This document shows positions 15,594 through 17,638 of a stretch of DNA of 64,000 bases, piece after piece (position 1 is the first letter of the stretch; each line of letters opens with the position of its first letter). The DNA lies in contig NZ_NFJR01000004.1 in assembly GCF_002159975.1 (NCBI RefSeq), forward strand, positions 62,001 to 126,000, written 5' to 3'. The notes beneath the pieces were generated by a model, which ran no database searches, was not told where the DNA came from, and worked only from the letters and a program-made list of their open reading frames with translations. A program made the translations under genes and the position numbers. The stretch is from Barnesiella sp. An22. GTDB lineage: Bacteria > Bacteroidota > Bacteroidia > Bacteroidales > Barnesiellaceae.

Positions 15594-15615
15594 GAGAGGA
15601 TAGGTAAATATACAG

Positions 15616-15655
15616 AGAGAGGTTGCGCTTTTCCCACGGCGCAATCTCTCTTTTT
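15616..15655 (+). terminator. guaA terminator
   Basis: Arms 15616-15628 (AGAGAGGTTGCGC) and 15639-15651 (GCGCAATCTCTCT) pair over 13 bases with one G-U pair, followed by a run of T. It marks the right border of the GC-richer core region before the AT-rich island. Confidence 0.9.
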
Positions 15656-15782
15656 AATACTTTTATAAAATCTAAGAGCTACTATGGCAATCACCTTTGG
15701 TAGTTTCTATTGTGATTCGTAGAATGAATTGATTTTTTACGATGGTAGAAATTTAATTATTGATGCAAATTAAAATTTCGTT

Positions 15783-16406
15783 TTAATCTATTATAAAGGA
15801 ATAATACCATCCTGAGAGTTGCAAATAACATCTCTCTTCTCCACTTCCATCATCCCACCAATTTGCGAGTGATAATCTAATTAATGTACCTGCTGAAATT
15901 TTATTAACTGGCTTTTCATAGCCGACATATTTAATTCGGATGTTATTATTATAAATATAGTAATGTTTTTCCCATTGTTCACTATGAATTAGATCTTTAT
16001 CTGCAATCCAAAATTGGGTGCTAAAAGATGGTACATTATCATGGCTTATAAAATTCTTCGTCCCATAGAATTTTAAACATCCTTCAAAAATTAAATTGAT
16101 AGGACCTTTTACAATTCTATTTCCAGAAAGATTATTTTTAATAAAGAGAGCAATGCTCCCAAATAGTCTATTTATTTTACGGATTGGTCTTACTTGTCTG
16201 TCTTCTGTATGAGGCTTTGGACGAGCATTCCAAGCTTGTTCAACTTCCATTTCCCATCTATCACCTATTTCATAAGGGGCATCTAGTGGCAGATTGCCTC
16301 CATTTTCGTCATGAATGCGTATTAATTCATAAGAGTCTTCATCAATGCCTCCTACACAGACTCCATTTTTCATTCGTGTTTTCGATACTATTAGAATTGT
16401 AGACAT
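15783..16406 (-). CDS. Putative dual-OB domain protein (DuOB-like), third gene of DUF488 island
   Basis: A 207-residue soluble protein with no signal peptide or membrane segment. From memory it resembles the dual OB-fold (DuOB) family: an N-terminal beta-rich half starting MSTILIVSKTRMKNGVCVGG, a conserved patch PKPHTEDRQV near residues 63-72, and a C-terminal half with AGTLIRLSLANWW and CYLQLSGWYY. OB folds usually bind nucleic acid, so a nucleic-acid-binding role is inferred, not shown. It starts 6 bases after the stop of the second DUF488 gene, so the three genes form one operon. The coding sequence is AT-rich compared with guaA and the PUL, suggesting horizontal acquisition. Confidence 0.6.
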   Translation of the reverse strand: MSTILIVSKTRMKNGVCVGGIDEDSYELIRIHDENGGNLPLDAPYEIGDRWEMEVEQAWNARPKPHTEDRQVRPIRKINRLFGSIALFIKNNLSGNRIVKGPINLIFEGCLKFYGTKNFISHDNVPSFSTQFWIADKDLIHSEQWEKHYYIYNNNIRIKYVGYEKPVNKISAGTLIRLSLANWWDDGSGEERCYLQLSGWYYSFIID

Positions 16407-16412
16407 AATTAA

Positions 16413-16904
16413 TTATAAATTTATTATTTCTATACCTCCAAATTCTTTTGATAATCTTTTTGCAACTAATGAACGATGACAGGCCTTGGCTTGTTCTTCG
16501 ACACAAAAAAATAGGACATTTTTTATTCCTTTTTTTTGTAATTCATTTATAAAGGTTTCCATATTAAATTTGTTTAATATCTGTTCGCAATATTCATTTA
16601 TGAATACTTCGCCTAATATCGTACGTTGTTTTTTTGTCTCATTGTTAAGTTTATCAGCATCTTTTTGTTTTTGTCGAATTTCTTTTGTTGGTGCTAACTC
16701 TTTAATATAAATATAGGGAATTTTTAATTCTGATAATTTAGATTGTAGATAGTTACTATTTACATATTTATATTGTGCACCCCGAATTCCTCTGCGCTGA
16801 CGAATATCGCAAAATAAACTAATATTATTTTGAACTAATTTCCCGAAAAAGCTTTGTTCTGTTGTTTGATAAACACCAATTGTATATATTTTAAATGTAT
16901 CCAT
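16413..16904 (-). CDS. DUF488 family protein, divergent copy
   Basis: A 163-residue protein with the DUF488 pattern: TIGVYQ at the start, CDIRQRRG near residues 32-39 in place of the usual DVR segment, and the C-terminal motif CVEEQAKACHR with both cysteines and CHR intact. An upstream in-frame start would run into the preceding gene, so I use the ATG at 16904, which overlaps that gene by 14 bases. Family function is not established; the conserved CxE...CHR motif suggests an enzymatic or metal/sulfur-related site. It clearly differs from its neighbour, so the two are not a recent duplication. Confidence 0.75.
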   Translation of the reverse strand: MDTFKIYTIGVYQTTEQSFFGKLVQNNISLFCDIRQRRGIRGAQYKYVNSNYLQSKLSELKIPYIYIKELAPTKEIRQKQKDADKLNNETKKQRTILGEVFINEYCEQILNKFNMETFINELQKKGIKNVLFFCVEEQAKACHRSLVAKRLSKEFGGIEIINL

Positions 16905-17493
16905 CTTCAATGTATTGATTTTTGTCTTTATAAGATTTGCAAGATTTAAAATATGGTGGTTCACAAATTTCGAAAAGATTGCCATTTGGTGTCCATTCTC
17001 CATTAGTTAACATTGTCATAATAGAAACCTGTGTAATATATTTATTCATGTCTATAATGTGATACATGTTTATGTTGTGGCTAAAAAATAGTTCTCTTCC
17101 TATCAATTTAGTTCGGTGACATTGAGACGGGTCTGTTTCAGTACACATAATTGCAGCACATATTTTTTTATTATTAGCTATTACAAGTCGATTTAACCCT
17201 TTTTGAAACAGAGGATCTTGTGCCATTTTTTTATAATCGAAAAAGCCATCAATGTCATAGCATAATTCATTTTGAGGTTTTCCTCCGAGAGAATCCCCCA
17301 TATATATATATATGATGTCTGGCATTAACCATGTTTCAATAGTACCTTGATTAAAATGGGGAGCCCATTTAGAATAAGGATTAGTTCTTACATCAATGAG
17401 ATATTTTATATTGAAACATTTTAATTCGGTAATAAATTCTTCCCGAGTTTTATGTCCATGTCCAATTGAATATAATGTAGTTTCGCCGTACAT
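16891..17493 (-). CDS. DUF488 family protein, canonical copy
   Basis: A 200-residue cytosolic protein beginning with YSIGHGHKTREEFI and containing LIDVRTNPYSKWAPHFN and CTETDPSQCHR, the three hallmark blocks of DUF488. All conserved residues are present. It is the first gene of the AT-rich island; a -7 box (TATATTTG on the minus strand, 17518-17525) lies just upstream. DUF488 proteins have no firmly assigned reaction; the pairing with a second DUF488 and a putative OB-fold protein in an isolated AT-rich block is consistent with a mobile accessory or defence operon. Confidence 0.85.
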   Translation of the reverse strand: MYGETTLYSIGHGHKTREEFITELKCFNIKYLIDVRTNPYSKWAPHFNQGTIETWLMPDIIYIYMGDSLGGKPQNELCYDIDGFFDYKKMAQDPLFQKGLNRLVIANNKKICAAIMCTETDPSQCHRTKLIGRELFFSHNINMYHIIDMNKYITQVSIMTMLTNGEWTPNGNLFEICEPPYFKSCKSYKDKNQYIEDGYI

Positions 17494-17517
17494 TTGAAAT
17501 TAGATTTATTCTGTATT

Positions 17518-17525
17518 CAAATATA
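17518..17525 (-). promoter_or_regulatory. -7 element of DUF488 island promoter
   Basis: On the minus strand TATATTTG fits TAnnTTTG and lies 25 bases before the ATG of the first DUF488 gene. A TTG about 21 bases further upstream could be the -33 part. The island therefore seems to have its own promoter, separate from the PUL whose terminator precedes it. Confidence 0.5.
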
Positions 17526-17599
17526 GTGAGACTTAACTATATAAACAAGCAATATTAAGTTTTATCTTTGAAGAATTTTATTAAGATATTTTTAAATAA

Positions 17600-17638
17600 A
17601 AACGGGGCCGATTCCTGGGCAGGAAGTCGGTCCCGTTT
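17600..17638 (-). terminator. PUL terminator
   Basis: Arms 17600-17616 and 17621-17638 pair almost perfectly (one bulged G, one G-U) around a GGGC loop. On the minus strand the hairpin is followed by TTTTTATTT, a typical intrinsic terminator. It closes the long PUL transcript just after the last GH92 gene. Confidence 0.9.

Follow-up and report, generated by a model that had tools for sequence, protein, structure and literature searches.

What do three small, tightly packed genes, two of them encoding DUF488 proteins and the third a predicted dual OB-fold protein, do in the genome of Barnesiella sp. An22? The sequence-only reading of this locus, a reading made from its letters without database searches, had proposed an uncharacterised system and had guessed at a role in defence, nucleic-acid modification or sensing. 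DUF488 is common and still without a function in Pfam. We analysed the genes within a 64,000-nucleotide stretch of contig NZ_NFJR01000004.1 (the window; all positions below are window positions unless a locus is named), among related genomes, and among plasmids, viral contigs and catalogued defence families.

The operon and its junction

The trio lies on the minus strand at 15783-17493 in the order B, C, A (ORF list). Gene B (16891..17493, 200 aa; ORF, Pfam, PADLOC and tree) encodes a PDC-M45B-like DUF488 protein, gene C (16413..16904, 163 aa; ORF, Pfam, PADLOC and AlphaFold2) a second DUF488 protein, and gene A (15783..16406, 207 aa; ORF, Pfam, AlphaFold2 and Foldseek) DuOB, the predicted dual OB-fold protein. 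The open reading frames confirm the tight packing first noticed at this locus, with a 14-base overlap of B and C and a gap of 6 bases between C and A. The AT-rich composition holds too: G+C is 0.305 (30.5%) for the operon against 0.534 (53.4%) for the window, GC3 of the three genes is 0.16-0.23, and all five loci whose GC we compared, this operon among them, are lower than their surroundings. A Prevotella assembly (L051) has the nearest copy, from which the three genes differ at 0.52-0.56 of third codon positions and at 0.14-0.23 of second positions; this excess, a ratio of about 2.4 to 3.9 across the genes, indicates that A, B and C are real coding genes under constraint. The trio is a real operon. 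Upstream of B stands a promoter-like element, TTG-N20-TATATTTG (17518..17548, minus strand), which we take to be a form of the Bacteroidota promoter consensus. A generic sigma-70 scan was uninformative, returning 18 sites against 11.3 expected, as chance sites in AT-rich DNA.

The operon sits in an inserted segment of about 2.0 kb (15602..17590, no strand assigned; GC 0.30), whose breakpoints were placed by BLAST against the guaA/GH92 junctions of four relatives with an empty site and one with another insert; the guaA and GH92 labels are those of the sequence-only reading and agree with the translations by eye. A hairpin and T-run after guaA (15615..15655, plus strand) is likely the guaA terminator, and a GH92-side hairpin beside the right insertion edge (17603..17635, minus strand) is common to the empty-site relatives. 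The junction is retained in six of nine genus genomes, the window genome counted, and is empty in four of the five others that retain it, with 43, 18, 33 and 61 unaligned bases between guaA and GH92 (L035, L036, L037 and L038, respectively). In the fifth relative, G008, it holds an unrelated AT-rich acyltransferase gene (L031 1722-2978; PF01757, gene GC 0.36). Elsewhere in the genus, different DNA follows guaA in G002 and G007 (roughly 9 kb read), and the contig of G005 stops shortly after guaA.

The empty junctions, together with the other cargo in G008, mark this junction as a variable spot that takes different cargo in different species. Gene B is present in one of the nine genus genomes; a weak match to it in G008 (29% over 75 residues) is located elsewhere and is not this operon. 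Flanking repeats at the insertion amount to nothing beyond an 8-base match, and reading through the window ORFs by eye turned up no integrase. A comparison of sister genomes for presence or absence at guaA/GH92 had been proposed at the outset, and the empty sites that it brought out lead us to conclude that the operon is, as judged from these alignments, a horizontally acquired insertion. No defence gene is obvious beside it; as far as the ORFs can be read by eye, its neighbours look metabolic and transport-related.

Families, residues and folds

Gene B matches the Pfam family DUF488 (PF04343) at E 1.4e-17, with 64.9 bits against a gathering cut-off of 22.2, and gene C matches it at E 2.5e-11 (44.7 bits, same cut-off of 22.2) and also passes DUF488-N3a (PF22751; E 1.1e-6, 29.4 bits, cut-off 27). 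The Cys...CHR and D-x-R motifs first read in both proteins could be located, as D34-x-R36 and C117-x-E119...C125-H-R in B and as D33-x-R35 and C134-x-E136...C142-H-R in C. Both motifs are kept by all 21 B and all 21 C proteins of 21 triads, which comprise loci from the DuOB search described below and other fetched loci, selected by a match to DuOB or to B; there is thus no sign that either protein is a dead subunit. The C proteins of the window type carry an invariant Arg-rich stretch (R37, R38, R41 and G42 in 12 of 12; DIRQRRGIRG in the window) and also invariant R77, K91 and R94 (12 of 12). Profile alignment by hhalign relates B to C (probability 99, E 5.7e-17) and found no similarity of either to 11 of 12 fetched RapZ-C sequences, a weak negative given the shallow alignments. 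Burroughs and Aravind reportedly treated RapZ-C and DUF488 as kin in 2023, in a RapZ-C/DUF488/DUF4326 clade with a phosphate pocket, and their account of the Rhodanese-phosphatase superfamily is said to cover DuOB and DUF488-N3a.

Gene A matches Pfam DuOB (PF22557) over profile positions 2-210 of 210 (E 3.8e-15, 56.9 bits against a cut-off of 27), and C17, R30 and E68 are kept in the DuOB proteins of all 21 triads. Its AlphaFold2 model, built on an alignment of 6 rows, is mostly strands with a pLDDT of 88.5. The first ten Foldseek rows for this model are innate-immunity DNA-binding entries, 4jbj presumably being one of them, and eight are titled HIN; OB entries of telomere proteins and RNases also rank high. 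HIN domains have two OB-like halves, and the best rows belong to the HIN-200 domains of the DNA-binding innate sensors AIM2, IFI16 and p202. However, the best E is 2.7e-3, with none below 0.001, TM is no higher than 0.37 in the first ten rows, and no sequence relation was found, so that the resemblance appears to be one of arrangement and not of membership. Pfam, the AlphaFold2 model and the Foldseek rows agree on the dual-OB partner that had first been suggested; the model supports two OB-like halves in A and implies no kinship to HIN domains, and nucleic-acid binding by A is a guess made from it. The model of C (pLDDT 91.7, alignment of 5 rows) drew weak Rossmann-like matches only. Searched by sequence against solved structures, neither B, nor A, nor the B and C profiles gave a meaningful match. 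No nuclease, NTPase or toxin family exceeds its cut-off in A, B or C (Pfam, NCBIfam and PADLOC), and a killing step is therefore not obvious.

Recurrence and kin

We searched for DuOB independently of DUF488 in an order sample of 295 genomes and a phylum sample of 395, and found it in 8 and 11 genomes, respectively; the window genome is in both, giving 18 loci, one of which (G476) scores under the family cut-off. Both DUF488 genes are intact beside DuOB at 14 of the 18 (in G681 DuOB is partly present). In G343 both lie next to DuOB, C being broken and DuOB partial; in G600 a single C-like DUF488 gene adjoins a broken DuOB; and in G476 and G669 DuOB has no DUF488 neighbours. The set thus recurs in other genomes, as the sequence-only reading would have it. 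The outcomes named there as contrary, conservation in all relatives and a lack of co-occurrence, were both looked for, and neither was found.

Across the 21 triads the genes always share a strand, with gaps of -113 to 62 bases (longest ORFs), in the order B-C-A in 13 and A-B-C in 8. Protein distances are correlated between B and C (0.82), B and A (0.71) and C and A (0.65), values reached by 0 of 5000 permutations in each case, which argues that A, B and C travel together. The 22 B rows of a 50-row tree form one clade (support 100/100), and inside it the 13 window-type rows form a clade of their own. C is not a single clade: the 13 C rows of window-type loci group together, and the remaining 9 group with the DUF488 proteins of plasmids or are placed beside B, on weak branches. 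To us this unrooted tree suggests that the module divided long ago into the window type and at least one other. The first impression of a diverged pair was borne out, B and C falling in two separate lineages, and the tree and distances indicate that they are distinct, co-inherited paralogues and not a recent duplication. The two-subunit enzyme suggested in the sequence-only reading is a possible arrangement for them.

The module also occurs in part. A and B are found without C at L098, L103 and L122, and A alone at L154 and L155; L156 has C and a broken A but lacks B. L091 has B and a shortened C near a contig end. Among these seven partial modules C is absent from five, B from three and A from one; the three-gene unit is either not always required or is decaying at such loci. 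B-like DUF488 genes are commoner than DuOB, being present in 51 of the 395 phylum genomes against 11, and at eight fetched loci (L097, L100, L104-L108 and L112) a B-like gene is accompanied by no detected C or A. B-like genes without A or C are possibly a separate group.

The closest known relative is PDC-M45, a candidate in PADLOC-DB 2.0.0 in which A is DuOB and B and C are DUF488 proteins: the same three families, adjacent and co-oriented. Gene B matches PDC-M45B at E 4.2e-41, and gene C matches PDC-M45C at E 2.4e-16, better than PDC-M19A at 1e-11. No PADLOC family, PDC-M45A included, is matched by gene A even at an E of 1. Among five window-type A proteins, those of the window, L109 and L089 have no PADLOC match and those of L092 and L057 reach 0.0014 and 0.0088, whereas PDC-M45A is strongly matched by three of three other-type A proteins, the DuOB of Agrobacterium (2e-88), of Rhodovastum (1.3e-78) and of L052 (1.9e-32). 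Window-type C differs in addition by its extra invariant Arg-rich signature. We therefore file the operon, from these profile matches, as kin of PDC-M45 and not as a strict PADLOC call; window-type A and its nearest kin are an under-recognised branch outside the PADLOC A models.

The operon is accordingly a member of an already listed candidate defence family and not a wholly new system. The claim of an uncharacterised system was incomplete: the family is already in PADLOC-DB 2.0.0 and the dual-OB domain is already named in Pfam and RefSeq, A and C passing the Pfam cut-offs for DuOB and DUF488-N3a, respectively. PDCs are putative defence candidates derived from guilt-by-embedding, and experimental validation is described as pending for most of them (PMC12988326). 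The literature searched makes no mention of PDC-M45, of a DuOB or dual-OB domain, or of DUF488-N3.

Mobile settings and likely function

Triads recur on plasmids, and some adjoin defence genes. On the Rhodothermus plasmid pRMAR01, B-C-A immediately precedes cas1 and cas2, and cas6 follows two genes later; A-B-C lies near a CBASS set on an Agrobacterium plasmid, adjoins csm6 near type III-B CRISPR genes on an Allochromatium plasmid, and is also carried by a Rhodovastum plasmid. Scans of a viral collection with alignments A3, A5 and A6 found window-type genes on four contigs: B, C and A on L120, with a terminase, on L121, where B runs off the contig, and on L124; and B and A only on L122. L122 and L124 are P2-like, as judged by their terminase, portal gene and replication gene A, and carry the module genes between the latter two. 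The gpA-gpQ interval of P2-like phages, the same locus, is described as a hotspot with anti-phage genes (PMC9122126). The viral collection scanned with the Agrobacterium DuOB gave no match; named phage records held no relative of that DuOB and one weak B-like match; and the E. coli collection, queried with two window-type modules taken from the viral contigs, returned nothing. Beside the B-A pair of L122, a P2-like prophage, lies a gene for a 451-aa protein of PHROG 8614 (L122 3808-5163).

A second version of the module likewise combines DuOB, a C-like DUF488 protein and a second enzyme in the same compact layout, but (mSLOG-)DUF4326 replaces B. These DuOB-DUF488-mSLOG/DUF4326 modules are found on enterobacterial and Moraxellaceae plasmids (Acinetobacter, Citrobacter, Moraxella and Klebsiella) and in E. 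coli islands. One such plasmid is 4167 bases in total, of which the module takes about 1.7 kb, and in Klebsiella the neighbours are a NotI-family restriction-modification pair. With this version as the query, 12 of 5426 E. coli genomes gave matches, confined to its DUF488 part (18-25% of the query), and the whole module is annotated in all three of the E. coli regions read. In two of these regions the module sits between ffs and ybaA in the company of recombinase or integrase genes; in the third it is downstream of icd, adjoining an integrase, an excisionase and mcrA. A DUF2188 gene occurs near the module in Agrobacterium (L110 7228-7464) and in the E. coli ffs-ybaA islands (L158 9736-9963 and L159 9964-10191). 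At L053 (6261-7520) the DuOB protein (419 aa) has a long C-terminal extension, with a Siphovirus Gp157 match just over the cut-off.

On balance, and by no wide measure of confidence, we favour the view that the operon is a mobile accessory anti-invader module, probably anti-phage, of the PDC-M45 or DuOB-DUF488 kind. DuOB would bind nucleic acid, namely invading DNA and perhaps its ends or single strands, and would bring both DUF488 enzymes to it. The D-x-R / Cys...CHR pocket of each enzyme may then grip a phosphate or sugar-phosphate group, and B and C would catalyse transfers or hydrolyses, as successive or distinct steps, on the nucleic acid or on a nucleotide bound to it; the invader DNA would end up damaged, capped or marked. 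This reading is supported by the position of the viral modules in the P2 accessory hotspot, the recurrence on prophages and plasmids, the CRISPR and CBASS neighbours, the restriction and integrase neighbours of the DUF4326 version, the empty junctions, the lowered GC, the PADLOC matches, the co-occurrence, tight spacing and co-inheritance of the three genes, the single B clade and the intact motifs. The small share of a 4.2-kb plasmid that the DUF4326 sister version occupies suggests that three genes may suffice alone.

The defence role guessed at in the sequence-only reading gains from the hotspot, the mobile islands and some of the neighbours, but not from neighbour statistics. For 11 of the 21 triads we tallied PADLOC families at 1e-12 among the genes up to 5 kb away, with 11 of 14 control regions from the same genomes fetched for comparison, and found no enrichment of defence near triads: 68 proteins and 73 families, against 75 proteins and 138 families for the controls, in a crude tally of family and not protein counts that lists the top 25 families on each side. 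Families listed near triads include two Cas1 proteins and a PDC-M16A match; those listed for the controls include matches to helicases and to restriction systems of type I and type II. The defence reading consequently rests on specific contexts and not on statistics. We also count against it the partial loci, the lack of similarity to the RapZ-C sequences, the lack of a killing family, the B-like genes that outnumber DuOB, the absence of an obvious defence gene beside the window operon, and the structure searches, in which B and C matched no solved structure by sequence and the fold of C drew weak matches.

Much the same settings would suit a nucleic-acid modification or end-repair module that serves the upkeep of the mobile elements themselves (replication, transfer or protection of their DNA) and is no weapon, and we regard this as an unlikely alternative, though one to be taken seriously. 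The module is linked to plasmids and prophages, a single-stranded DNA-binding protein gene lies in two of the plasmid neighbourhoods, and A, B and C have no recognised killing domain. However, the cassettes of the window and of L051 lie between ordinary-looking genes with no element recognised, which a benefit to the host fits better, and the prophage modules occupy the P2 accessory hotspot and not the core replication genes.

Lower in our estimate, and rather improbable, is a more specific form of the anti-invader view, in which A would be a HIN-200-like dual-OB sensor of invader DNA and the Cys-pocket pair would add a sugar-phosphate or nucleotide, for example one derived from NAD, to DNA or its ends. 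B would be exchangeable for mSLOG-DUF4326, and the immune system would be widespread, with the window type as a separate branch. Were this true, such an addition would be a new DNA chemistry in defence, carried by a branch that the PADLOC A models do not see.

Doubtful, and less probable again, is a toxin-antitoxin-like addiction module in which one or both DUF488 enzymes are toxic and DuOB or the other protein is the restraint. A compact operon found on plasmids would fit it, as would the uneven loss that leaves A without B and C (L154 and L155) or A and B without C (L098, L103 and L122). Yet the motif residues are retained by the two DUF488 proteins of all 21 triads, so that there is no dead partner; no toxin or antitoxin family exceeds its cut-off in Pfam or NCBIfam; and the persistence of B where C is lost gives no pointer to a single toxin-antitoxin pair. 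Finally, an ordinary housekeeping duplication of DUF488 that adjoins an OB protein and has no special role is scarcely credible: DUF488 is common, being matched in 6 of the 14 control genomes, and another copy exists elsewhere in the host genome, but the operon is in one of nine genus genomes with the junction empty in four, its GC is 0.305, B and C are separate lineages, and the empty junctions and co-inheritance already contradict it.

The value of the operon of Barnesiella sp. An22 lies in its being small, mobile and intact, and it is a good experimental target. A mobile cassette that pairs two motif-intact DUF488 enzymes with a predicted nucleic-acid-binding partner makes the question of what DUF488 does directly testable, and this cassette is small enough to clone whole and is of a kind found in a known anti-phage hotspot. 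As the window-type branch is poorly matched by the PADLOC A models, systems of this type may be under-counted.
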